64,000 bases of DNA, taken from the NCBI GenBank assembly GCA_022565665.1, contig JAIUMI010000002.1, positions 62,001 through 126,000 of the forward strand, given 5' to 3'. Below, piece by piece: positions 41,942-55,540 of this stretch (its first letter is position 1; each line of letters starts with the position of its first letter). A program made the position numbers and the translations under genes. This stretch comes from Glycocaulis sp. (GTDB taxonomy: Bacteria; Pseudomonadota; Alphaproteobacteria; Caulobacterales; Maricaulaceae). The notes beneath the pieces are model-generated. The model did not search any database, had not been told where the DNA came from, and worked only from the letters and a program-made list of their open reading frames with translations.

Positions 41942-43361
41942 ACATCTCCATCATTCTGCGCGGATCGGTAATGGCACCAGCGACCGCTGCGGCGGCGGCA
42001 GTGGCAGGGCTTGCCAGCACGGTGCGCACGCCGGGGCCCTGACGGCCAGCGAAATTGCGGTTGGAGGTGGAGACGACCAGCTCTCCGGGCCGTCCGGAAT
42101 CCCCATTCATGGCGATGCACATGGAACATCCGGGCTCGCGCCATTCGGCCCCTGCGGTGCGGAAGATCGCATCCAGCCCTTCGGCTTCGGCCGCCTTGCG
42201 CACACGCTCCGAGCCCGGAACGACCAGCATGCGCACGCCAGGCTTCACATGACGCCCGGCCATGATGAGGGCGGCTTCGCGCAGGTCTGACAGCCGTGCA
42301 TTCGTGCACGAGCCGATAAACACGGTATGGACCGGCTCGCCCAGCAGGGTCTCGCCCGGCTGGAAGCCCATGAAGGCGAGCGCCTTGGCGGCATCCCCGT
42401 CATTGGGCGCAGGCACTGACATGTCCACAGGGCCTGCCATGTGCGGGGATGCGCCCCAGGTGACCATGGGGGCAAGGCGGCTGGCATCCAGCGTCACCAC
42501 CCGGTCGAACTCAGCTTCGGGGTCGGAGCGTAGAGCGCGCCATTTCAGGCGCGCTGCCTCGAACGCCGCGCCCTTGGGGGCATATTCACGGCCCTGCAGC
42601 CAGCTGAAGGTCACCTCGTCTGGCGCGATAAGCCCGGCGCGGGCACCCGCCTCGATAGACATGTTGCAGACCGTCATGCGCCCCTCCATGGAGAGCGCCT
42701 CGATGGCAGGGCCGGCATATTCGATGACGTGGCCGGCCGCGCCGCCAGCGCCGATCTTGGCGATGATGGCGAGGATCAGATCCTTCGCGCCGACGCCATT
42801 GGGCAGGCGGCCATCAACATGGACTTTCATCGTTTTCGGCTTGCGCTGCAGAAGGCACTGCGTGGCCAGCACATGGCCCACTTCCGTGGTGCCGATGCCG
42901 AAGGCCAGCGCCCCGAACGCGCCATGGGTGGAGGTGTGGCTGTCCCCGCACACAATGGTCATGCCGGGCTGGGTCAGGCCCAGCTCCGGCCCCATGACAT
43001 GGACAATACCCCGGTCCGGACTGCCCCAGCCGGCAAGCGGAATCCCATGGTGGCGGCAGTTTTCCTCCAGCCGTTCAACCTGCATCTGAGCAGCCGGGCT
43101 GATATAGACCGGGCGCTGGCCTTTTCTGCGCGGCGTAGTGGGGGTGGAATGGTCAAGCGTCGCAAACGTCCGGTCCGGACGGCGCACGGGGATACCGCGC
43201 GCCTCCAGAGCGGAGAAAGCCTGAGGACTCGTCACTTCATGGACGAGGTGGAGATCGACATAGAGAATGGCCGGACTGTCGGCCGTCTCCGGCGAGACGA
43301 TATGAGCGTCCCACAGCTTGTCGAACAGTGTCCTGGGCTTATTCTGCGGCGCGCTTGCCAT
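41928..43361 (-). CDS. leuC: 3-isopropylmalate dehydratase large subunit
   Basis: A 477-residue iron-sulfur subunit. Cluster cysteines lie in [13 protein letters not shown] and [10 protein letters not shown]; catalytic DHSTPT and [25 protein letters not shown] are present. Length is normal (E. coli 466). Its start overlaps ilvE by 23 nt. Confidence 0.97.
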
Positions 43362-44307
43362 CGTGTTTCCCTTTTACGTCAACGTCCGGATAAACCGGGT
43401 CCAGCCAGCCCCATTTGTCGGGCGTGCGTCCTTCAAACAGGCCGAAGAAGCGGTCCTGTATCAGCCTGGTTATCTCGCCCGGCCCGTTGGCGCGGGTCGG
43501 CTTGTCATCGACAGAGCGGATGGGTGTCACTTCAGCTGCCGTGCCGGTGAAAAAGAGCTCGTCGGCGAGATAGAGTATCTCGCGCGGCAGCACCTGTTCG
43601 ACCACCTCGATGCCTTCCGATTTGGCGATCTCGATCACGCTGTCGCGGGTGATCCCCTGCAGGATGGACGAGGCCGCAGGCGGGGTCAGGAGACGGCCAT
43701 TTTTGACCGCGAAAATGTTCTCGCCCGCGCCTTCAGACAGGCGCCCTTCCGTATCCAGACCAATCCCTTCGGCATAGCCGCGCTTCTTCGCCTCGCGCGA
43801 GATGAGGAAGCTGGACAGGTAATTGCCGCCTGCCTTGGCGCCCGTCGGCGCGGTATTGGGCGCCAGGCGGTTCCAGGAGGACACGCACACATCCACGCCT
43901 GCATTGCGCGCCTCATCGCCGAGATAGGCCCCCCAGGGGAAGGCGGCGATGTAAAGCTCGATCGGCGGCAGGTTCAGCGGGGCCACGCCCACAGAGCCAT
44001 AACCGATGAAGACGACCGGGCGCAGATAGGCCGATTTGAGATTATTGGCACGCACGATTTCGTTGCACGCCTCGACAATCGTGTCCTCATCAAACGGCAT
44101 GGGCACGTCATAGATGCGCGCAGAATCGGCCAGGCGGCGGATATGGTCACGCACGCGGAAACCCATCGGCCCATCCGGCGTGTCATAGACGCGGATACCC
44201 TCGAACATCGAGGTGCCATAGTGCAGCGCATGGGTCAGCACATGCACCTTCGCATCGGCCCATTTGATAAGCTGTCCATTGTGCCAGATGTGTTCGACTT
44301 CATTCAT
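43339..44307 (-). CDS. ilvE: Branched-chain amino-acid aminotransferase
   Basis: A 322-residue class IV PLP aminotransferase completing valine, leucine and isoleucine synthesis. Motifs: [16 protein letters not shown] Lys in [15 protein letters not shown], and [25 protein letters not shown] precedes the ATG. It sits between leuA (19 nt away) and leuC, within the attenuated ilv-leu operon. Confidence 0.95.
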
Positions 44308-44326: not shown

Positions 44327-45910
44327 TCATTCCGCTGCGGCGGGCGCGTGATTACGCGCCCTGTGCCGGGCTATCGCCTCGGCATTGCATAGGGCGTCGA
44401 TATACGCGCTGACGCAAGCGGGAAGGATGTCACGGGTGCGGGCCCGGCCGGTAAAGCTTTCGCCCTCCACCGCCACGCTCATTTCAATGAGCACATCGGC
44501 GCCCTGCCCGCCCGGCCCGTCCTCGTCCGGATCGGCGGCGACATACTGCATGTCGATGCTCTCCACCCGGCCTTCCATCCCGATGATGTGGCTGACCGCA
44601 GTGAAGGCGGCGTCCAGCGCGCCGGGCGCCGAGGCGATATCGGTCACCCGTCCCCGGCGCGGATGATCCAGCTCGATACGCGCTACCGGCATGGCATTGG
44701 CCGCGAGCGGCATGCGCACCTCGGCACGTGACAGTGTCCACAGCCCGGTTTCGAGCGTGCCGTCCAGCCGCGACAGGATAGTGGCAAGGCGGGCGCTGTC
44801 TACCGTGCCGACCTCGTCTGCCACCTCCTTGAATACGGCAAAGGCCGCGTTCAACTGCTCCGTATCGAGATCATGGCCCAGCTCGCGGGCCCGCGCGGCG
44901 AGCGCGTGCTTGCCCGAATGCTTGCCCAGCACCAGCGCGTTGGACGCCAGCCCGATATCTTCCGGCTTCATGATCTCGTAGGTCTCGCGGTTCTTCAGCA
45001 CACCGTGCTGATGGATACCGGCCTCATGGGCGAAGGCATTGGCCCCCACGATCGCCTTGTTACGCGGGGGATGGGTGGAGGTGATTTTTGACAGGGTCCG
45101 CGAGGTATTCATGATCTCGCGCGTATTGATATTGGTGGTGACGCCCGTGGCATCGCGCCGTGTACGGATCGCCATCACCGCATCTTCCAGCGCCGCGTTG
45201 CCCGCACGCTCGCCAATCCCGTTGACCGTGCATTCGATCTGGCGCGCCCCGCCGCGCACGGCCGCCAGCGAATTGGCGACCGCCAACCCCAGATCATTAT
45301 GGCAATGGGCCGAGAAGATGACGTGTTCCTCTCGCGTCACCTTCTTCGACAGCATGCGGAAGAGTTCGTATATCTCCTCCGGCGTCGAATAACCGACCGT
45401 ATCGGGCACATTCAGCGTGGACGCGCCTGCCGCCGCCGCCGTGGACAGCGCCTCAACCAGAAAGCCCGGCTCGGTGCGGATGGCGTCCTCGGCGGAGAAC
45501 TCCACATCATCGGCGAACTCACGCGCATAGGCCACCATGTCGGCGATGCGGGTCAGCACCTCGGCCGCGCTCATCTCCAGCTTGAATTCCCGGTGGATGG
45601 GGCTGGTGCCGAGGAAGACATGAATACGCTTCTTCTTTGCCGCTTTCAGCGCCTGCGCTGCCGCGTCGATATCGCCCTTCACCGCACGCGCGAGCGAGCA
45701 GATGCGGGGGCCGTCTACCTCGGCGGCGATACGGGCGATGGCGCGGGCATCACCGGGCGAGGCGGCGGCAAAGCCGGCCTCGATGATGTCCACGTTCAGC
45801 GCGGCGAGCGCGCGCGCCATTTTCAGCTTCCCGTCCTCGCTCATCGAGAAGCCGGGGGCCTGTTCACCATCACGCAGGGTGGTATCGAATATCAGGACAT
45901 TGGGCGCCAT
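44327..45910 (-). CDS. leuA: 2-isopropylmalate synthase
   Basis: A ~527-residue enzyme making 2-isopropylmalate, the first committed leucine step. TIM barrel with FDTTLRDGEQAPGFSMS and the metal site FSAHCHNDLGLAVANSLAAV. The C-terminal LeuA regulatory domain (residues ~395-515) is present, so leucine feedback is expected. The ATG at 45910 overlaps the ilvM stop by one base (TGATG); a GTG directly before it is possible. Confidence 0.96.
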   Translation of the reverse strand: MAPNVLIFDTTLRDGEQAPGFSMSEDGKLKMARALAALNVDIIEAGFAAASPGDARAIARIAAEVDGPRICSLARAVKGDIDAAAQALKAAKKKRIHVFLGTSPIHREFKLEMSAAEVLTRIADMVAYAREFADDVEFSAEDAIRTEPGFLVEALSTAAAAGASTLNVPDTVGYSTPEEIYELFRMLSKKVTREEHVIFSAHCHNDLGLAVANSLAAVRGGARQIECTVNGIGERAGNAALEDAVMAIRTRRDATGVTTNINTREIMNTSRTLSKITSTHPPRNKAIVGANAFAHEAGIHQHGVLKNRETYEIMKPEDIGLASNALVLGKHSGKHALAARARELGHDLDTEQLNAAFAVFKEVADEVGTVDSARLATILSRLDGTLETGLWTLSRAEVRMPLAANAMPVARIELDHPRRGRVTDIASAPGALDAAFTAVSHIIGMEGRVESIDMQYVAADPDEDGPGGQGADVLIEMSVAVEGESFTGRARTRDILPACVSAYIDALCNAEAIARHRARNHAPAAAE

Positions 45911-46173
45911 CACGCACTCTCCCGCAATGGTTCGGCCGTCAGTTCGCGCACGGACAGAACGCCGTAGACGCGGCTGATCTGGGCTTTGAGCGTCTCCATG
46001 CGGCGCGGGCCGGGGCGGGGGCGGACGGACAGGTCCAGCCGCCCCTTCCCGCCTACGGCCGCGGGCTGGAAGTTGACGCCCAGAAGCTCATAGCCGCGCC
46101 GCTCCACGAGGCCGATGAGACGCACCACCTGGCCTTCAGCGGGCTCGAAGTCGATTTCGATGCGGTGGGTCAT
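45910..46173 (-). CDS. ilvM: Acetolactate synthase small subunit, IlvM type
   Basis: An 87-residue single ACT-domain protein (HRIEIDFEPAEGQVVRLIGLVERRGYELLG). This matches the short IlvM regulatory subunit of E. coli AHAS II (87 residues), not the ~170-residue IlvH usual in Alphaproteobacteria. It follows ilvG by 5 nt. It probably makes the synthase weakly feedback-controlled. Confidence 0.88.
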   Translation of the reverse strand: MTHRIEIDFEPAEGQVVRLIGLVERRGYELLGVNFQPAAVGGKGRLDLSVRPRPGPRRMETLKAQISRVYGVLSVRELTAEPLRESA

Positions 46174-46178
46174 GGCGT

Positions 46179-47882
46179 TCAGGCCTCCATCATTTCGGAA
46201 TTGGATTTGCCCGGCGGCACCAGCGGCCAGACATTTTCACGCGGGTCGATGCGCACATGGCACAGGACCGGCCCGCGCGTGGTCAGCAGGCGTTCAATGG
46301 CTTCGGCCTCGCCTGCGCGGTGCTCCAGCGTGAACGCCTCAATGCCGAAAGCGCGGGCGATCTCGGCAAAGTCGGGATTGTCGTAGAGATCCACCTCGGA
46401 GAAATTCTCCTGGTAGAACAGCTCCTGCCACTGGCGGACCATCCCTAGCTGGGAATTGTCCAGCAGCAGGATTTTGAGCGGGATGCGGTAGCGCCGTATG
46501 GTCGCCAGCTCCTGAATATTCATCATGATGGAGCCATCGCCGCTGACCGTGACGACGGTGGCGTCCGGCTCGGCGAGCGCCGCGCCAATGCCCGCCGGAA
46601 TGCCAAACCCCATCGTGCCCAGCCCGGCGCTCGTCAGGTGCGCCTGCGGGCGGGTGAAGCGGCAGTGCTGGGCTACCCACATCTGATGCTGACCGACATC
46701 ACAAGTGACAATGAGATTGTCGCCCGCCGCCTTCGCCATCGCGTTGAGCAGCCCCGGCGCATAAACGCCAGAGCCCGGCGCGTCATAGCGGAAGGCCCAG
46801 CGCACGGCATTGTCCGCACACGTTTTCTGCCACGCGCTGATATCGCCCATGATCGGGTGCAGGGCATCGAGAATGGCCCCGATATCGCCTGCCAGCCCGA
46901 CCTCGACCGCGCGCAGCTTGGAAATCTCCGCCGCGTCGCCATCGATGTGGATGACCCTTGCGCCGGGCGCGAAGGTATCGAGCTTGCCGGTGGCCCGGTC
47001 ATCAAAGCGCGCGCCGACACAGATCAGGAGATCGCTGTCATTGACGGCTGTGTTTGCCGCGCGGGTGCCGTGCATGCCCAGCATGCCAAGAAAGCCCGGC
47101 CAGTCGGTCGGTATCGCGCCGAGCCCCTTCAGCGTGGCGACAGCGGGGATGCGCGTGCGCTGGAAGAAGCGCCGCAGCGCGTCCTCGGCCCGCGACAGGG
47201 CAATCCCGCCGCCAAAGTAGAGGACGGGACGCCGCGCCGCCGTGATCAGTTGCCCGGCGCGTGCCAAGCCCTGAGCATCGAGGGGAAAAACGGCGGGCGT
47301 CTCCGTCCGGCAGGCAATCACTCCGGGGGTGTGGATGCTTGCCTGCGTCACGTCCTTGGGCAGATCGATCAGAACCGGGCCGGGCCGTCCTGATGCGGCG
47401 ACCCGGAAGGCTTCTGCGAAGATATGCGGGATGTCGGCCGCATCGCGCACCAGCCAGGAATGCTTCACGACCGGCAGGGTGATGCCGAACGTGTCGATCT
47501 CCTGAAACGCGTCCGTGCCCATGAGCGGGCTCGCGACCTGACCGGTAATGGCCACCATCGGCACACAGTCCATGAAGGCGTTGGCGAGCCCGGTGACGAG
47601 ATTGGTCGCGCCCGGCCCGGAAGTGGCCATGCACACGCCCGGACGGCCCGTGATGCGGGCCCAGGCATCGGCGGCCAGCGCCGCGCCCTGCTCATGGCGG
47701 ACAAGGATATGGTTCAGCGACGAACCGGTCAGGGCATCATAGACGGGCATGATCGCCCCGCCGGGATAGCCGAACACATCGGTCACGCCCTCGCGCTCCA
47801 ATGCCTCCACCACCAGCTGCGCGCCGGTCTTGAAGGCGGCGTGCTGGCTGGCATCGGAGCTGGTCTGGGCGGCGGGTTGCAT
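46179..47882 (-). CDS. ilvG: Acetolactate synthase large subunit, IlvG type
   Basis: A 567-residue ThDP enzyme making acetolactate and acetohydroxybutyrate. Motifs: FGYPGGAIMPVYDAL, the catalytic Glu in LVRHEQGAALAADAWARITG, ThDP motif VTVSGDGSIMMNIQELATI with LLLDNSQLGMVRQWQELFY. Pairing with a short IlvM indicates the IlvG branch. It follows ilvC by 33 nt. Confidence 0.94.
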   Translation of the reverse strand: MQPAAQTSSDASQHAAFKTGAQLVVEALEREGVTDVFGYPGGAIMPVYDALTGSSLNHILVRHEQGAALAADAWARITGRPGVCMATSGPGATNLVTGLANAFMDCVPMVAITGQVASPLMGTDAFQEIDTFGITLPVVKHSWLVRDAADIPHIFAEAFRVAASGRPGPVLIDLPKDVTQASIHTPGVIACRTETPAVFPLDAQGLARAGQLITAARRPVLYFGGGIALSRAEDALRRFFQRTRIPAVATLKGLGAIPTDWPGFLGMLGMHGTRAANTAVNDSDLLICVGARFDDRATGKLDTFAPGARVIHIDGDAAEISKLRAVEVGLAGDIGAILDALHPIMGDISAWQKTCADNAVRWAFRYDAPGSGVYAPGLLNAMAKAAGDNLIVTCDVGQHQMWVAQHCRFTRPQAHLTSAGLGTMGFGIPAGIGAALAEPDATVVTVSGDGSIMMNIQELATIRRYRIPLKILLLDNSQLGMVRQWQELFYQENFSEVDLYDNPDFAEIARAFGIEAFTLEHRAGEAEAIERLLTTRGPVLCHVRIDPRENVWPLVPPGKSNSEMMEA

Positions 47883-47915: not shown

Positions 47916-48932
47916 TCAGGGTTGGCCGGCATTGGCGCCGGGTTTCAGCCAGCCCATGCGGGCGCGCAGGCGCGCACCGGTGTGCTCGATCGGCTGGTCG
48001 AGATCGGCGTTGAGAAGCGCGCCATAGCGCGGCTTGCCAGCCTGGTTTTCCAGCACCCAGTCGCGGGCGAAGCCGCCAGTGCGGATATCGCTCAGCACCT
48101 CGCGCATCCGTTCGCGGGTTTCTTCGTTGATCACGCGGGGGCCGGAGACGAGATCGCCATATTTGGCCGTCTCGGAGATGAAGTCGTGCATCTTCGCGAT
48201 CCCGCCCTCATAGAGCAGGTCGACGATCAGTTTCAGCTCGTGCAGGCACTCAAAATAGGCGATCTCAGGCTGATAGCCGGCCTCGACCAGCGTCTCATAG
48301 CCGGCCACAACCAGCTCGGTCGCGCCGCCGCATAGAACGGCCTGCTCCCCGAACAGATCGGTCTCAGTCTCCTCGGCGAATGTCGTCTCGATGGCCCCGC
48401 CCGCCGTGCCGCCATTGCCTGCGCAATAAGCCAGCGCCTTGTCGCGCGCCTTGCCGCTGGCATCCTGCCAGACCGCAAACAGGCTCGGCACGCCCGCGCC
48501 GCGCTCATATTCGCGCCGGACGAGATCGCCGGGGCCTTTGGGCGCGACGAGGATGACATCAATGTCCTTGGCGGGCTTCACCTGCCCGTAATGGATGGAG
48601 AAGCCGTGCGCGACGAGCAGGGCATCATCCGCCTGCATATTGGGCGCGATGTCCTTCGTGTAGACGTCCGCATGGCTCATGTCCGGGGTCAGCAGGGCGA
48701 TGAGTTGCGCGGCCTTGGCCGCTTCGGCGGGGCTCATCACCGTGAAGCCGTCGGTCTTCGCGCGCGCCTCAGCCGTGCCGCCTGCACGCGCGCCGACGAT
48801 CACCTCGTGGCCGCTGTCACGCAGATTGCGCGCATGGGCGCGACCCTGGCTGCCATAGCCGATAATGGCGATAGTACCGCCCTTCAGCGCGGACGGGTCG
48901 GCGTCATTATCGGTGTAGATGCGGGCTTCCAT
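47916..48932 (-). CDS. ilvC: Ketol-acid reductoisomerase
   Basis: A 338-residue class I (short) KARI, NADPH- and Mg-dependent. Motifs: [21 protein letters not shown], the [17 protein letters not shown] loop and [19 protein letters not shown]. First structural gene of the operon, right after the attenuator. AAGGAGACC precedes the ATG. Confidence 0.97.
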
Positions 48933-48961: not shown

Positions 48962-49001
48962 CGAAAAAGAAAAACCCCGCTTCCTTTCGGGAGCGGGGTT
49001 T
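48962..49001 (-). terminator. Intrinsic terminator of the ilv attenuator
   Basis: On the leftward transcript a stem forms between AACCCCGCT (49000-48992) and AGCGGGGTT (48981-48973), loop around GAAA, followed by a U-rich tract (48972-48962). It lies between the leader peptide stop (49033) and ilvC (48932). The core of the hairpin is the same as that in front of thrA (49683-49706). Confidence 0.9.
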
Positions 49002-49032
49002 TCTGCGTTTCAGGTTTTTTTGAGTTCAACCG

Positions 49033-49113
49033 TCAGGCAGGGGCAACCGCTCCCGTATGGGTAATAATAAGTACAAGTACGAGTACGAGCGCGGTGAGGC
49101 CGGAAACCGTCAT
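49033..49113 (-). CDS. ilvL: ilv leader peptide of the attenuator
   Basis: A 26-codon frame: MTVSGLTALVLVLVLIITHT, then GAVAPA and stop. Residues 9-17 are LVLVLVLII, nine branched-chain codons in a row, the classic sensing run. GGGAG lies 6 nt before the ATG. An in-frame ATG at 49173, also with a GGGAG-type site, would add 20 hydrophilic residues. The segment 49047-49055, inside codons for THTGAV, is perfectly complementary over 9 nt to the terminator's 5' arm (48988-48996). A ribosome stalled on the run would leave it free to form an antiterminator. A ribosome at the stop codon would cover it and let the terminator form. Mechanism is inference from structure. Confidence 0.88.
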   Translation of the reverse strand: MTVSGLTALVLVLVLIITHTGAVAPA

Positions 49114-49173
49114 CAGACGCTCCCGGGTCTCGCGCTCTGCGCGGATGGCAATGACCTTGGCCGCCGCTCTCAT

Positions 49174-49513
49174 AACCTGCTCCCAAAAGCCGCTCCCGGT
49201 TGACGCGATGCCAGCCGGAGAGGCCCCATGACGAAGCGGACGCCGTTCGCGCCCGCCTTCCTTTTCATCCTATGGGCAGGTGCAGCAAAAGCGCAAGCGA
49301 AAAATTGTCCGGATGAAGTTTCAGAAATTATCTTTGATTTTTCAATGAGTTAATATAAGTGCCGTGCTATCTTCCACGTGCATTTGCATGAATATCAAAT
49401 TTTTTGTTTGACCTGTGCGCAGTTTCGCGTGCAGCCTTCGCAGCGATGTTAGCGGTTGCAACAAGGGGCTTCCCCGTCGCAGCGGCTGACACGTCTGAAG
49501 AATGGAACGGCCC
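49174..49513. promoter_or_regulatory. Divergent promoter region of the ilv and thr operons
   Basis: 340 nt between the two leaders. It holds an AT-rich core (about 49285-49405, e.g. TAATATAAG and TTTTTTGTTTGACC) that must carry both promoters, but I cannot assign -10/-35 pairs with confidence. It also contains a hairpin around AAGGGGCTTCCCC (near 49470) and a short signal-peptide-like open frame at 49228-49353. Confidence 0.55.
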
Positions 49514-49648
49514 ATGTGCGAGCGTTTTGACATCGCCATGACTTTCTCCGCCGGTGGCTCTGCCGCCGGGGCTGCTTCCATGTCCGTCACCACCATCATC
49601 ACCATTACGACCACCGGCACCCCCGGGGGCGGAACGGATATGGGCTGA
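49514..49648 (+). CDS. thrL: thr leader peptide of the attenuator
   Basis: A 44-codon frame containing the run TTIITITTT (49589-49615) followed by GTPGGGTDMG and stop. Threonine and isoleucine codons in tandem are the hallmark of ThrL. The true start may be 49514, 49538 or 49580, all ATG and in frame; none has a strong ribosome site. Within it, 49624-49632 (CGGGGGCGG) can pair over 9 nt, one being G-U, with the terminator 5' arm at 49685-49693, the same geometry as in the ilv leader. Confidence 0.85.
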   Translation: MCERFDIAMTFSAGGSAAGAASMSVTTIITITTTGTPGGGTDMG

Positions 49649-49682
49649 CGAGGCAGGCAAACCTCAAACAGAACCCGGACCG

Positions 49683-49713
49683 ACCCGCTCCCGAAAGGAA
49701 GCGGGTTTTTTCT
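49683..49713 (+). terminator. Intrinsic terminator of the thr attenuator
   Basis: Stem ACCCGCT (49683-49689) with AGCGGGT (49700-49706), inner CC/GG pairs around GAAA, then a T-tract from 49706. It lies 52 nt before thrA. From CCCGCT to AGCGGG it is identical to the ilv terminator on the other strand. Confidence 0.9.
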
Positions 49714-49764: not shown

Positions 49765-51561
49765 ATGAAACCCGATCACGCCCAGCCCCGGCCGCTATCA
49801 CAGGCCCAGCCGCCCGTCTGCGTACTCAAGTTAGGCAGCTCGGTGCTGGAGACCGATGCCGATTATCAGGCCGCAGCCCAGGAAGTCTTCCGTCATGTCC
49901 GGCGCGGGGAGAAGGTGATCGCGGTCGTCTCCGCACTGGCGGGGCAGACCGATGCCCTGCTGGCGCAGGGCGAGCGGGTGGGCGGCAATGGCGCCGAGCC
50001 ACACCCAGCCTTCCTGGCCCGTCTGGCGCGCGTAGGTGAGCTGCAGTCTGCCGCCCTGATGGGTCTTGCGCTGGCGCGTGTGGGGCTGCGCACACGGGTG
50101 ATGGATCCGGATGAGATGGGGCTGATGGCCGAGGGTGAGCCGCTGGACTCCGATCTGGCCAGCGTGGATCGCGACGCGCTGCACTCCGCACTCAGCCTCA
50201 ATGAGGTGCTGGTGGTGCCGGGCTTTACCGCGCAGCACGCCAAACATGGCGTCGTCACGCTCGGCCGGGGCGGGACGGATCTGACGGCAGTATTCTTTGC
50301 TGCCGAAGCAGGAGCCGCGCGGGTGCGGCTCATCAAGGATGTGGACGGTGTGTATGCCGAGGATCCGGCGCAAAATCCGGATGCGGAGCGCTATGCCGAG
50401 CTGGACTATGGAAAGGCGGCCGAGGCCAGCAAGGGGCTGATCCAGCCGAAAGCCATCTGGGCGGCGCGCGATGCCGGTGTGGTGATCGAGATCGCCGCCA
50501 TGGGCGCAGCTGAAGCCACGCGCATCTGCTCGGCGCCCGCGCGCAAGGCCCCGGCCCGGCCCCAACGGCCCTTGCGGGTGGCGCTGCTGGGCTGCGGCGC
50601 GGTGGGAGCAGGGGTGCTCGCCCACCTCAAGGCCCGTCCGGAGCTGTTCGAACTTAATCCGGTCCTCGTCCGCCGCCCTGAAACGCGCGAGGGGGAGGCC
50701 GGTGTGGTGTTCACCGCCGATCTTGACCGCGCCCTCGCTCACAGGCCCGATCTGGTGATCGAGGCGATGGGCGGGGCCGATTATCCCGCCACCATCATGG
50801 AAGGCGTGCTGGCAAGCGGCGCCAGCGTGGTGACGGCCAACAAGGCCGCGCTTGCCCGCCATTATGACGGGCTGCACGCCGCAGCACGGCAGGGCGGCGG
50901 ACGGCTTGCCTATTCGGCGTCTGTGGGTGGAGGCACGCCCATCCTCGAAGCGCTGGAACGTCTGGTCAGGGCGGGCGGTGTGCGCCGGATCGAGGGCGTG
51001 ATGAACGGCACGGCCAACTTCCTGCTCGACCGGCTGGCCGAGGGCGCGAACTTCGATGCGGCCGTAAAACGTGCGCAGGCGCTGGGCTTTGCCGAAGCCG
51101 ATCCGGCCGCCGACGTGGACGGGCATGATGCTGCTGACAAGCTGTCCCTGCTGATCCGCGAAGCCTTCGCCATCGCGGTTGACCCGGCAGATATCCCCAA
51201 GGATTCCCTTGCAGACGTCAGCGCAGACAAGGTCCAGAGAGCCCGCGAGGAGGGCCTCGCCTACAAGCAGATCGGCCTGTGTGAACTGCTGCCTGATGGC
51301 ACGCTGAAGGCCGAGGTGCGGGTGCGCCCGGTGCCGCTGAACCATCCGCTGGCGGGAGCGCGCAATGAGGAAAACCGCTTCGTCATCACCGGTAGCGACC
51401 ACGCCGTCCACGCCCTGTTCGGCAAGGGCGCGGGGCGCTGGCCGACCGCTGCAGCGGTGTTTGCCGATGTGATGGACATTCAGCGCAGACTGTCAGAGCC
51501 TGAGGCCCAGTCAAAGGCCCGCAAGGGCGAGCCGGACCGCCCCCTCCGGCTGAGGGCCTGA
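49765..51561 (+). CDS. thrA: Aspartate kinase-homoserine dehydrogenase fusion lacking ACT domains
   Basis: A 598-residue bifunctional enzyme. Residues ~18-262: amino-acid kinase domain with VVSALAGQTDALL, GVVTLGRGGTDLTAVFFAAEAGA and IKDVDGVYAEDP. The opening motif is KLGSSVL where aspartate kinases usually have KFGGTSV. Residues ~272-590: homoserine dehydrogenase with VALLGCGAVGAG, VTANKAALA, SASVGGGTPILEAL, GVMNGTANFLL and GFAEADPAADVDGHDAADK. E. coli ThrA is ~820 residues; the missing ~220 correspond to the ACT regulatory region between the domains. Threonine feedback is therefore likely lost, with control left to the attenuator. Confidence 0.9.
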   Translation: MKPDHAQPRPLSQAQPPVCVLKLGSSVLETDADYQAAAQEVFRHVRRGEKVIAVVSALAGQTDALLAQGERVGGNGAEPHPAFLARLARVGELQSAALMGLALARVGLRTRVMDPDEMGLMAEGEPLDSDLASVDRDALHSALSLNEVLVVPGFTAQHAKHGVVTLGRGGTDLTAVFFAAEAGAARVRLIKDVDGVYAEDPAQNPDAERYAELDYGKAAEASKGLIQPKAIWAARDAGVVIEIAAMGAAEATRICSAPARKAPARPQRPLRVALLGCGAVGAGVLAHLKARPELFELNPVLVRRPETREGEAGVVFTADLDRALAHRPDLVIEAMGGADYPATIMEGVLASGASVVTANKAALARHYDGLHAAARQGGGRLAYSASVGGGTPILEALERLVRAGGVRRIEGVMNGTANFLLDRLAEGANFDAAVKRAQALGFAEADPAADVDGHDAADKLSLLIREAFAIAVDPADIPKDSLADVSADKVQRAREEGLAYKQIGLCELLPDGTLKAEVRVRPVPLNHPLAGARNEENRFVITGSDHAVHALFGKGAGRWPTAAAVFADVMDIQRRLSEPEAQSKARKGEPDRPLRLRA

Positions 51562-51591
51562 TCCATGGCGGGCAGGGAAAGGATCGGCGCG

Positions 51592-52539
51592 ATGAGAACC
51601 ATCGCCAGCGCCAGCGCACCGGCCAGCATCGGCAATGTCGGGCCGGGTTTTGACATATTGGGACAGGCATTTGATGCCCTGAAGGACAGGGTAACCGTCC
51701 ATCGCGAGGACGCGCCGGGCGTCCGGCTGGGCAAGGTGACGGGCTGTGTGCCGGGCCTGCCCGCCGAACCGCACCGCAATACGGCGCTTGCCGCCGCGCT
51801 CGCCCTGCTGGAAAGCCAGAAGGCCCCGTTTGGCGTCCGGCTAGATGTCGACAAGGGCGTGCCCGTAAGCGCCGGCATGGGCGGGTCTGCGGCCTCGGCC
51901 GTCGCTGCCGTGGTGGCCGTCAACGCCCTGCTGGACAAGCCGCTGGCGCATGGCGCGCTGCTGCCCTTCGCGATGGAAGGCGAGCGGGTCTCCTCCGATC
52001 CGCCCCCCTGGGACAATGTGATGGCAAGCCTTTTGGGCGGGCTGGTGATTGCCGCGCGCCTCGATGCGGCCCACGTCCAGCAGATACCCGCACCCGAAGG
52101 ACTGGTGTCGATTGTCGTTCACCCCGATGCGGAGATCGAGACGCGGGCGGCGCGCGGCATCCTCAAACCCACCATCCCCATGGAAACGGTGGTGGAGCAT
52201 TCACGGCGTCTGGCCGCCTTCGTGGCCGGATGTGCAGCCAGTGATCTCAAACTGATCCGCGACGGGCTGGACGATGTGCTGGTCGAGCCGCAGCGCCGCT
52301 TCCTCCTGCCGGCTCTGCCTGCGGTGAAGGCGGCAGCCCTGGGCGCAGGCGCGCTTGGCTGTTCCTTCTCCGGCTCCGGTCCGTCCATCTTTGCCTGGGC
52401 GGTTGAGGCGGATGCCGACGCGGTGGAAAAGGCCATGGTGAAAGCCTTCAAGGCCGAGGGCTTGAAATCGCGCAGCTACCGCGCCGCGATCCGCTCTCAA
52501 GGCGCGCGGCTGGAGCCGGCCATGGAGACGGTGGCATGA
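51592..52539 (+). CDS. thrB: Homoserine kinase, GHMP type
   Basis: A 315-residue GHMP kinase phosphorylating homoserine. Motifs: SASAPASIGNVGPGFDILGQAF and the ATP loop VPVSAGMGGSAASAVAA; C-terminal GCSFSGSGPSIFAW. Alphaproteobacteria usually use an unrelated APH-type homoserine kinase, so this GHMP form is unusual. The ATG at 51592 follows AAAGGA and gives the normal N-terminus; 51565 is an alternative. It lies 30 nt after thrA and overlaps thrC by 4 nt. Confidence 0.93.
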   Translation: MRTIASASAPASIGNVGPGFDILGQAFDALKDRVTVHREDAPGVRLGKVTGCVPGLPAEPHRNTALAAALALLESQKAPFGVRLDVDKGVPVSAGMGGSAASAVAAVVAVNALLDKPLAHGALLPFAMEGERVSSDPPPWDNVMASLLGGLVIAARLDAAHVQQIPAPEGLVSIVVHPDAEIETRAARGILKPTIPMETVVEHSRRLAAFVAGCAASDLKLIRDGLDDVLVEPQRRFLLPALPAVKAAALGAGALGCSFSGSGPSIFAWAVEADADAVEKAMVKAFKAEGLKSRSYRAAIRSQGARLEPAMETVA

Positions 52540-53858
52540 AATTCGTTTCCACACGCGCCAAGCAGGCGGTGACCTTGAGCGAAGCCATCAGGCGCGGTGC
52601 AGCGCCCGATGGCGGGCTTTACGTGCCGGAGCGCCTGCCCCGCTTTGAGGCAGGGGAACTGCCCGCTGGCCTGCCCCTGCCGAGGCTCGCCGAACGGCTT
52701 TTAAAGCCTTTCTTTGTGGACGATGCGCTGGACGTGCATCTTGGCGATATCTGCGCCAATGCGTTCAACTTCCCCGTACCGCTGGTGACGCCGGATCCGG
52801 CCCGTCCCGGCCTGCGCGCGCTGGAGCTGTTTCACGGCCCCACCGGCGCGTTCAAGGATTTCGGCACGCGCTTCCTGATGGGTGCGCTGGACCGCATGGC
52901 CCGCCCCGGCGAGCGCTTCACCGTGCTGGTCGCCACGTCCGGCGATACGGGCGGGGCGGCAGGTTGCGCGGCAGAAGGGCGGGAGAATGTGTCGCTCGCC
53001 ATCCTCTATCCGCAAGGGCGCGTCTCGGCCTTTCAGGAGCACCAGCTGACCTGCTGGGGCGAGGGCGTTGCCGCCTTCAGCGTGAAGGGCGATTTCGATG
53101 CCTGTCAGGCACTGGTCAAATCGGCCTTTGCCGATGTAGCCCTGACGCGCCGCTTCAATCTGACCTCGGCCAATTCCATCAATATCGCCCGGCTGCTGCC
53201 GCAGATGGTCTATCTCGCCGGGGCCGCGCTGGACGTGCACAAGGCCAGCGGCGTTGCGCCCGGCTTCATCATCCCCTCGGGCAATCTGGGTCATGCGCTG
53301 GCCGCGCTCTATGCCCGCGCCATCGGCGCCCCCATCGGGCCGATCGTGGTGGCCACCAATGCCAATGACGCGCTCTCGCGCTGGGCGGCCACCGGGCTCT
53401 ACCAGCCGCTGCCCTCGGTGGCGACGCTGGCGAACGCCATGGATATCGGCGCGCCGAACAATTTCGAGCGCCTTGCCGCGCTGGAACCCGGTCAGCGCGC
53501 GGTGAGCGTGGAGCGCGTGCTGGACGATGCCATCCGCGCCCGGATCAGCGAGGACTTTGCCCGCTCGGGCTATGTCTGGTGCCCCCATTCGGCCATTGGC
53601 GCGGAGAGCTGGCACCGCCTGCCTGAAGCGGCGCGCGAGCAGCGCGTCTGGATCAGCGCGGCGACGGCCCATCCGTACAAGTTTGCCGATATTGTTGAGC
53701 CTCTTACCGGAAGCGCCATCGTGCCCAGCCCGGCACTGGAAGCGGTGCTGAAGCGCCGCTCTGAAAAGCGCGCAATCAAGGCCGATCCCCAGACGCTCGC
53801 CCGCGCTCTGGCCGATACATTCCGCCCGGCCCATGCCGGCGAGGGAGTTCCTGCATGA
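52536..53858 (+). CDS. thrC: Threonine synthase
   Basis: A 440-residue PLP enzyme converting phosphohomoserine to threonine. PLP Lys in [16 protein letters not shown], followed by [17 protein letters not shown] and [17 protein letters not shown]-terminal [13 protein letters not shown] is diagnostic. It overlaps thrB (52536-52539) and ilvD (53855-53858) by ATGA junctions. Confidence 0.96.
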
Positions 53859-55540
53859 CCACCCCAAAATCGCCTTCGCGCACCCTGATCGAGGGTCCGG
53901 CGCGCGCACCTGCACGCGCGATGCTACGCGCGGCCGGCTATGACGATGAGGCCATGGCCAAGCCGCTGATCGCGATTCTCAACACCTGGTCGAGCGTAAC
54001 GCCCTGCAACATGCATCTGGCGGATCTCGCTGTGCATGCACGCGAGGGCATCAGGGCGGCAGGCGGCACGCCGGTCGATTTCAACACCATCGTGGTCACG
54101 GACGGTATCTCGATGGGTACTGAAGGCATGCGCGCCAGCCTGATGAGCCGCGAATGCGTGGCTGATTCTGCCGAACTTGCCGTGCGCGGACATTGCCTTG
54201 ATGCGGTGCTGTTTCTGGTCGGGTGCGACAAGACGATTCCCGCCGCTGCGATGGCCGCGGCCCGCCTCGACCTGCCAAGCGTGGTGCTCTATGGCGGCTC
54301 GATCATGCCCGGCAGGCTTGGCGAGAAGAACATCACCATCCAGGACGTGTTCGAGGCCGTAGGCGCGTGCGCGGCAGGCCGGATCAGCGAGGAAGAGCTG
54401 GCAGAGGTGGAAAAGGCCGCCTGCCCGGGTGCGGGTGCCTGCGGAGGCCAGTTCACCGCCAATACTATGGCGCTGGCGCTCACCTTCCTCGGCCTCTCGC
54501 CCATGGGGCTGAATGATATTCCGGCCGTTGATCCGCGCAAAACCGGCGCCGCGCGCCGGGCCGGTGAACTGGTGGTGGAAGCCTTGCGCGAAGAGCGCAA
54601 TGCGCGCCAGCTCATCACGCCTGTCAGCCTGAAAAATGCCGCGGCCGCCGTGAGCGCCACCGCAGGCTCGACCAATGCCGTGCTGCATCTGGTTGCCATT
54701 GCACGGGAGGCTGGCATCGGGCCTGACGGCTTCTCCATTGATGATTTTGACCGCATCTCACGTTCCACGCCGGTGATTGCGGACCTCAAGCCCGGCGGAC
54801 GCTATATGGCGCCTGACATGGCCGCGGCGGGCGGCTCGGCGCTTCTGGGCCGCAGGCTGAAAGAGGCAGGCCTGATCAAGGATGCGCCCACCGTTACCGG
54901 CGACACGCTCTACGCCCTGGTGTCCGATGCGGCTGAAACACCGGGGCAGGACGTTATCCGCAGCGCGGGCACACCGCTGAAAGCGCGCGGCGGCTTTGGC
55001 ATTCTCTATGGCGATCTCGCCCCTGAGGGGTGCGTTGCCAAGCTCGCCGGGCATGACCGGCTGCTCTTTTCCGGTCCGGCGCGGGTGTTTGACGGCGAGG
55101 ATGCCTGCTTTGCGGCCGTCCAGTCCGGTCAGATACGCAAGGGTGATGTGGTGGTGATCCGTCATGAAGGCCCTGCGGGCGGACCGGGCATGCGCGAAAT
55201 GCTGGCCGTCACGGCAGCCATTCAGGGCGCGGGGCTGGGTGATGATGTGGCGCTGGTCACGGACGGGCGCTTCTCAGGAGCAACCCACGGCTTCATGGTC
55301 GGCCATGTCGCGCCGGAGGCCGCGCGCGGCGGGCCCATCGCCTTCCTCAAGGATGGTGACCGGGTGACGATCGATGTGGAACGCCAGCGCATCGATACCG
55401 ATGCCGATCTGGAGACGCGCGCCAAGGCAGGCTTTACCGCGCCGCGCCCGCGCTATCGATCAGGCGCGCTGGCCAAATATGCCGCTCTTGTGGGTTCGGC
55501 TTCGCAAGGCGCGACCACCAGCTTCCCCTTCAGCGACTAA
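53855..55540 (+). CDS. ilvD: Dihydroxy-acid dehydratase
   Basis: A 561-residue iron-sulfur dehydratase of valine and isoleucine synthesis. Cysteines in [32 protein letters not shown] and [19 protein letters not shown]. It is the last gene of the thrA-thrB-thrC operon, so the isoleucine pathway depends here on the threonine attenuator, whose run contains both Thr and Ile codons. Its stop overlaps ptsN's as CTAA. Confidence 0.96.

Follow-up and report, generated by a model that had tools for sequence, protein, structure and literature searches.

The closest described counterparts of the two regulatory regions considered here are the thrL leader of the Escherichia coli thrABC operon and the ilvL leader of the ilvGMEDA operon. 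The former has a run of Thr and Ile codons and a thrA fusion gene downstream, and a segment within the leader ORF, GGTGCGGGC, located directly before the stop codon, is complementary to the arm GCCCGCACC. The latter has a run of Ile, Val and Leu codons, an in-ORF segment, CGTGCGGGG, that is complementary to CCCCGCAC, a terminator with a GAAA loop and a stem mismatch, and an IlvG-type enzyme encoded in the operon. Both E. coli leaders use the arm CCCGCACC. Among the alphaproteobacteria, an attenuator with tandem Ile and Val codons has been described for ilvBN of Caulobacter crescentus (Tarleton 1994, as cited in a passage of PMC4117421); by that description, it resembles the ilv leader reported here in being a case of alphaproteobacterial ilv attenuation, but differs in that it controls ilvBN. 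An excerpt of PMC1183508 presents a stop codon behind region II as one of two strategies for low basal read-through, and the position of the stop codons behind the antiterminator segments described here fits that strategy as the excerpt sets it out.

The window (the whole 64-kb stretch of DNA that was analysed) contains two gene clusters that diverge at about 49.2–49.5 kb. The leftward order is ilvC, an ilvG-type gene, an 87-aa small-subunit-like ORF, leuA and ilvE, and the rightward order is thrA, thrB, thrC and ilvD (Table 1). Both first genes, ilvC and thrA, have a leader ORF of their own with a codon run, and an intrinsic terminator 5' of the gene. An earlier note on this DNA had reported these back-to-back leaders together with their codon runs, antiterminator segments and terminators, and a recheck by script found its coordinates to be right within a few bases; its observation that the terminator cores are identical from CCCGCT to AGCGGG is likewise correct, the identity extending over 22 nt. 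A simple terminator scan listed the ilv hairpin and missed that of thr, returning two sites against a shuffle mean of 1.5, and a simple scan of the attenuator region for promoter-like sites found none. Since ilvD is located at the end of the thr cluster, a Thr/Ile sensor would control a branched-chain enzyme too. The acetolactate synthase of the window is of the IlvG type (isozyme 2) and is followed by the small-subunit-like ORF (together 45910-47882, minus strand), an arrangement like that of the E. coli ilvGMEDA operon. The ilv leader additionally has three more GGGAGC copies upstream (at 49197, 49184 and 49124, minus strand), which are complementary to the terminator arm; the ilv leaders of four sibling genomes have a single copy only.

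Table 1. Genes and attenuator features of the divergent ilv and thr clusters, with positions in the window
Feature	Position	Strand	Basis
ilvE, branched-chain transaminase	43339..44307	-	NF005146 above cut-off
leuA, 2-isopropylmalate synthase	44327..45913	-	NF002086 above cut-off
ORF of 87 aa in the place of ilvM, likely small subunit of acetolactate synthase	45910..46173	-	Position; small-subunit models match over their full length, but weakly and always below cut-off (best E 1.2e-4)
ilvG-type acetolactate synthase large subunit	46179..47882	-	NF006524 (acetolactate synthase 2), 864 bits against a cut-off of 738
ilvC, ketol-acid reductoisomerase, first gene of ilv cluster	47916..48932	-	NCBIfam NF004017 and TIGR00465 above cut-off
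ilv intrinsic terminator, core CCCGCTCCCGAAAGGAAGCGGG at 48976-48997, C.A mismatch in stem, T tract	48970..49003	-	-22.3 kcal/mol; core twice in genome
ilv leader stop TGA	49033-49035	-	Sequence
ilv leader peptide ORF, MRAAAKVIAIRAERETRERLMTVSGLTALVLVLVLIITHTGAVAPA, 46 codons	49033..49173	-	Sequence; leaders of relatives L/I/V-rich, many ending GA(V/A)..P(A/V)
ilv antiterminator segment CGGGAGCGG, inside ORF, 11 nt before stop	49047..49055	-	z -6.0 against shuffles for duplex with terminator 5' arm; recovered by RNAalifold, 2/8 pairs compensatory
ilv codon run LVLVLVLII (CTC GTA CTC GTA CTT GTA CTT ATT ATT)	49063..49089	-	Sequence; L/I/V runs in ilv leaders of relatives
thr leader peptide ORF, MCERFDIAMTFSAGGSAAGAASMSVTTIITITTTGTPGGGTDMG, 44 codons	49514..49648	+	Sequence; Thr-rich leader at 52/52 family ThrA loci
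thr codon run TTIITITTT (ACC ACC ATC ATC ACC ATT ACG ACC ACC)	49589..49615	+	Sequence
thr antiterminator segment CGGGGGCGG, inside ORF, 13 nt before stop	49624..49632	+	z -2.2, p 0.02 against shuffles; outer helix part of the structure given by RNAalifold for the 6 sequences of genus g1
Long thr antiterminator, outer 9-bp switch helix and inner helices at stop codon	49624..49693	+	MFE -35.3 kcal/mol; clade-specific inner helices at same place
thr leader stop TGA	49646-49648	+	Sequence
thr intrinsic terminator, 22-nt core at 49684-49705 as in ilv, T tract	49682..49707	+	-16.3 kcal/mol
thrA, short aspartokinase-homoserine dehydrogenase fusion	49765..51561	+	NF004976 above cut-off (HSD part); N-terminal part matches aspartate kinase models, below cut-offs
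thrB, homoserine kinase	51565..52539	+	NF002288 and TIGR00191 above cut-off
thrC, threonine synthase	52536..53858	+	TIGR00260 above cut-off
ilvD, dihydroxy-acid dehydratase, last gene of rightward cluster	53855..55540	+	TIGR00110 and NF002068 above cut-off

The window thr leader shares with thrL the Thr/Ile codon run, the thrA fusion downstream and the design in which an in-ORF segment is complementary to the arm. It differs in the arm itself (CCCGCTCC as opposed to CCCGCACC), in the distance of the segment from the stop codon, in its extra inner helices and imperfect terminator stem, and in the presence of ilvD at the cluster end. Similarly, the window ilv leader has the design of ilvL, with an Ile/Val/Leu run, an IlvG-type enzyme and a terminator with both the GAAA loop and a stem mismatch, but its first gene is ilvC rather than ilvG, leuA is part of the cluster, ilvD is located in the opposite cluster and the 8-nt arm differs by one base. 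Since thrL and ilvL themselves have the same design, the window pair joins an already known kind of attenuator. The Rfam model RF00506 (Thr_leader) gave full-length scores of 20.9 bits (E 0.26) for the thr leader and 22.4 bits (E 0.12) for the ilv leader, both short of the 55 bits set as gathering threshold, and Rfam families unrelated to it do about equally well on the window leaders, RF02744 for example with E 0.01. The titles and abstract openings of the literature matches listed include no publication on these attenuators in this family.

Conservation was examined in a set of 137 genomes, referred to here as the family, which apparently takes in Robiginitomaculum (Robiginitomaculaceae at NCBI) besides Maricaulaceae. 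ThrA was found at E<=1e-120 in 52 of the 137 genomes, and a Thr-rich leader ORF with a terminator lies upstream of thrA in all 52, a count obtained at loci picked by protein match as opposed to motif, using a leader finder that takes the stop codon with the most Thr codons and with no shuffled control behind it. At least four Thr codons occur among the last 26 leader codons in all 57 thr rows, which are made up of the 52 genomes of the family, three loci from outside it and two further named loci with the same sequence as two of the 52. The corresponding 40 ilv-type rows include one leu leader, one orphan and one duplicate; duplicate rows were left out of the alignments and of the all-row folding with positioned ribosomes. 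Of the 52 thrA-bearing genomes, 18 have an ilv attenuator on the divergent side. All 18 are among the first 22 genomes, the remainder being G450, G452 and G506, which are without one, and G015, which has an orphan leader; none was found in the other 30 within the 0.85-1.35 kb of flank. Unlinked ilv attenuators of the family precede an ilvD-like gene and then ilvC in the genomes checked, and since these loci, except that of G011, were found via the arm pattern, their arms are no independent sample. The earlier proposal of two ribosome-mediated attenuators with the same arm and a similar geometry is upheld in that the arrangement is conserved in relatives, at all 52 thr loci and, in linked form, at 18 of the 52 for ilv. 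More distant ThrA-like loci (L017, L018 and L078-L083), when read by eye, showed no such leader.

Three side observations concern individual genomes. In G015, the orphan (L177:780-1040), divergent from thrA, is an ilv-like leader with a terminator and a peptide tail GHKGAVAG that is devoid of a codon run; it precedes a 148-aa ORF without assigned function, at a place where siblings have ilvC. The same genome has a leuA-type attenuator (L184:755-1011) whose leader reads ...LSTLVLLSALLLMTFISGARVPV and whose arm is CCCGCTCC. Outside the family, two Sphingomonas records and one alphaproteobacterial MAG (L066, L067 and L068) have a ThrA that is 57-66% identical, together with a thr leader whose terminator arm is the same, which suggests that the thr operon was transferred along with its leader.

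Analysis of 35 ilv sequences with RNAalifold returned the antiterminator and nothing else, with eight pairs of which two have compensatory changes. The pair formed by columns 21 and 106, which is not in the search pattern, is GC in 18 sequences, UA in 4, AU in 3, CG in 2 and UG in 1, and unpaired in 7, such that it is unchanged in 18 sequences and changed on both sides in 10. For the thr leaders, a family-wide alignment of 52 sequences yielded no RNAalifold consensus structure; since the clades are not in register with one another there, separate alignments of 6, 14, 18 and 10 sequences were used, one per clade. The outer helix, in which the G-rich segment within the leader ORF pairs with the CCCGCTCC arm, was recovered in each of the four, within structures of 21 pairs in g1 (6 sequences), 12 in g5/g8/g15 (14), 16 in g10 (18) and 17 in g7 (10). 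Compensatory pairs numbered 2, 1, 0 and 1, respectively, with none in the outer switch helix. The inner helices, which enclose or adjoin the stop codon, differ strongly in sequence between clades. The check by folding and covariation put forward in the earlier note therefore gave a positive outcome for ilv across the family, with compensatory changes, and for thr by clade, but no family-wide thr consensus.

Pairing between segment and arm was better than that of shuffled sequences (p<=0.05) in 39 of the 40 ilv rows (median z -4.1) and in 17 of the 57 thr rows (median z -1.3). The thr pairing often fails to beat shuffles because the segment is G-rich, and shuffled versions therefore pair too. 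Thr pairing was weaker than the shuffle mean in G497, G500, G501, G502, G504 and G505, and no better than shuffles in G450, G452, G506 and one Sphingomonas row. With regard to the window itself, the claim that both segments pair with the same arm holds for ilv and also for thr, but less so for the latter, in which the pairing includes one G-U (Table 1). A possible pause hairpin 5' of the codon run is only weakly indicated, with median z values of -0.76 for 57 thr rows and -1.53 for 39 ilv rows.

The anatomy, its conservation and the covariation of the ilv antiterminator, which were directly observed, make it very probable that the region comprises two independent head-to-head ribosome-mediated transcription attenuators, responsive to Thr/Ile on the right and to Leu/Val/Ile on the left, in which the arm is shared as an old feature of the family and the identical tip is late and local. 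From these observations we infer translation of the leaders, ribosome stalling, termination and a response to starvation, along the following lines. When charged Thr and Ile tRNA (right) or Leu, Val and Ile tRNA (left) is plentiful, the leading ribosome would clear the codon run and, once past it, would cover the G-rich segment and disrupt the helices at the stop codon. The CCCGCTCC arm would then be left to form the terminator hairpin with its 3' arm, and transcription would end before thrA or ilvC. If the ribosome were stalled in the run, the free segment would capture the CCCGCTCC arm ahead of synthesis of the 3' arm, and transcription would continue. Since there are Ile codons in both runs, Ile shortage should open both operons.

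Folding was modelled with ribosomes at defined positions, with 12 nt covered past the first base of the A-site and upstream RNA ignored. For the window thr leader, a ribosome in the run is predicted to give antiterminator probabilities of 0.93-1.00, falling to 0.26 at the last codon, and a ribosome beyond the run gives a predicted terminator probability of 1.00. For the window ilv leader, the predicted antiterminator probability with a ribosome in the run is 1.00, only until the 3' arm is made. Across the rows, with a stalled ribosome and the 3' arm not yet made, the arm is predicted to be held upstream (P>=0.8) in 48/55 thr and 37/37 ilv cases. In the finished RNA with a stalled ribosome, the corresponding predictions are 31/55 and 5/37, with the terminator preferred in 24/55 and 32/37, so that in these thr and ilv rows alike the switch has to be a kinetic one. 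When the ribosome is placed at the stop codon, the terminator is predicted to form (P>=0.8) in 49/55 thr and 37/37 ilv rows; with the 3' arm unmade, the ilv arm would be partly held in most relatives, P being <=0.2 in 12/37. These arm-holding values are to be read against shuffled spacers, which in the model also give high values (means of 0.67 for thr and 0.50 for ilv), and rows in which at most 5% of shuffles reach the arm-holding value number 13/55 for thr and 35/37 for ilv. Given the ribosome footprint, a ribosome at the stop codon would reach just the 3' part of each antiterminator segment. The earlier claim that a terminating ribosome would mask a segment inside the leader ORF stands as regards position, the segments being 11 and 13 nt before the stop, but only the 3' part would be covered.

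The origin of the likeness between the two hairpins was considered next. The 22-nt core occurs twice in the 2.74-Mb genome and nowhere else with up to three mismatches. Sites of the form CCCGC...GCGGG+T number 16 in this genome, where only the two attenuators continue TCC, and 16-34 per genome in six genomes, in which 2 of 110 other sites continue TCC, the 110 leaving out the attenuators and one complementary-strand hit at an attenuator. The possibility that the core is a generic terminator is ruled out by this low TCC count and by the finding that just three CCCGCT...AGCGGG+T sites exist in the genome, two of which are the attenuators. A composite pattern of segment, spacer, arm and hairpin was found in 39 of the 137 family genomes with no control hits, a count that covers hits only partly inspected, those in G484 and G485 resembling, by eye, a groEL 3' end with its terminator. 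Class-wide, the pattern was found in 2 of 385 genomes (the source genome and one chance-like hit) with two control hits, which rules out, on this sample, that the core marks attenuators across the class as a whole. Of the 57 thr rows, 53 have the arm CCCGCTCC, as do 29 of the 40 ilv-type rows, the remaining 11 ilv rows having TCT or TTC.

These counts bear on whether the shared arm reflects a terminator preference combined with chance, ilv and thr having reached TCC independently, an account with a real prospect of being correct, albeit somewhat short of an even one. The abundance of CCCGC...GCGGG sites is in keeping with it, as is the situation in the Gammaproteobacteria. E. coli-like ThrA was identified in 60 of 398 phylum genomes, of which 52 were taken and 15 dropped because they had no leader or terminator, or no convincing one, leaving 37. 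Matching ilv and thr arms occur in 14 of these, 13 of them in one family, with the automatic arm cut off by at least one base in a few rows (f191 and f192) whose arms differ by eye too. Arm sharing is therefore not required, and a general coevolution of the two arms is unsupported in the Gammaproteobacteria. The scarcity of TCC at other CCCGC sites and its retention in the family at most thr and ilv-type loci nevertheless speak against independent arrival at TCC. According to the preferred reading, the arm is common to ilv and thr as an old feature of both attenuators in the family.

The earlier note had instead envisaged a single attenuator that was copied in inverted orientation, or converted, and adjusted to other amino acids through the codon run alone; taken as a recent duplication or a conversion of the whole, this is considered unlikely. 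The uniqueness of the identical core to this pair speaks for such an event, as does the single inverted match, of 34 nt at 94%, obtained at E<=0.001 when the 861-bp region was compared with itself. However, no similarity between the leaders beyond this 34-nt hairpin was detected at that threshold, and other genera have both attenuators, linked or not, the ilv attenuator there being elsewhere with the same arm, such that recent duplication with a change of the codon run alone is not sustained. Identical ilv and thr tips within a genome are confined to the source genome among 35 rows with both tips, and the tips of the other 17 linked pairs, siblings included, differ. Identical tips also occur between unrelated genomes, the ilv tips of G001, G003 and G005 being the same as the thr tip of G482, and the GAAA loop recurs in the G015 ilv attenuator, which does not adjoin thrA, and in many gammaproteobacterial ilv attenuators.

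In permutations within genus, linked pairs have tips that are more alike inside a genome than between genomes, which favours duplication or conversion. For the 18 linked pairs, the edit distance gave p 0.0013-0.0017 (0.009 without the source genome), with 0.051 for genus g1 alone, 0.025 for g5 alone and 0.0056 with identical pairs collapsed; permutation across all gave 0.011, or 0.147 without the source genome. The statistic was chosen after the sequences had been seen and ignores the tree, and kinship within genera can account for part of the similarity. The 16 unlinked pairs showed no within-genome similarity (p 0.97). The idea of a converted hairpin thus survives in part, its support depending on the permutation scheme (p 0.001-0.15), and local conversion within linked ilv/thr pairs is weakly supported by these comparisons. 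Since the GAAA loop is present in G015 and in gammaproteobacteria, convergence on a stable loop equally explains the identical tip. On the sequences compared, the identical tip here is a late local event, either conversion or convergence on the GAAA loop.

A broader proposal, that attenuators placed head to head undergo concerted evolution, the hairpins of linked ilv/thr pairs exchanging sequence by template switching or by conversion between inverted arms, and that the shared arm also allows pairing in trans and thereby ties the operons together, appears improbable. Trans action considered separately, in which released leader RNAs would coordinate the operons by pairing of the segment of one with the arm of the other, is very improbable. 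Because the arms are identical in this genome, the segment of each leader is indeed complementary to the other's arm as well, and a trans-acting attenuator product has been reported for trpL of Sinorhizobium, according to the part of PMC7298713 consulted, providing a precedent. However, arm sharing follows from the common design, pairing in cis should win, and matched arms are not kept in most of the gammaproteobacterial genomes. Finally, a reading of the hairpins as ordinary terminators at gene ends, with short ORFs that arose by chance, can be dismissed. Other inspected CCCGC terminators of this genome do follow gene ends and the simple scan revealed no excess of terminator-like sites, but at the 52 thr loci and the 18 linked ilv loci the hairpins precede thrA or ilvC and accompany a matching codon run, and covariation is seen in the ilv antiterminator.

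The two independent attenuators favoured here extend thr-type attenuation to an alphaproteobacterial family in which Rfam stays below threshold. The linked and unlinked pairs of the family provide a small natural experiment on the concerted evolution of inverted regulatory repeats. In the organism itself, much of the Asp-Thr-Ile-Val-Leu pathway is gathered in a single 12-kb island, with Ile codons in both of its putative sensors.
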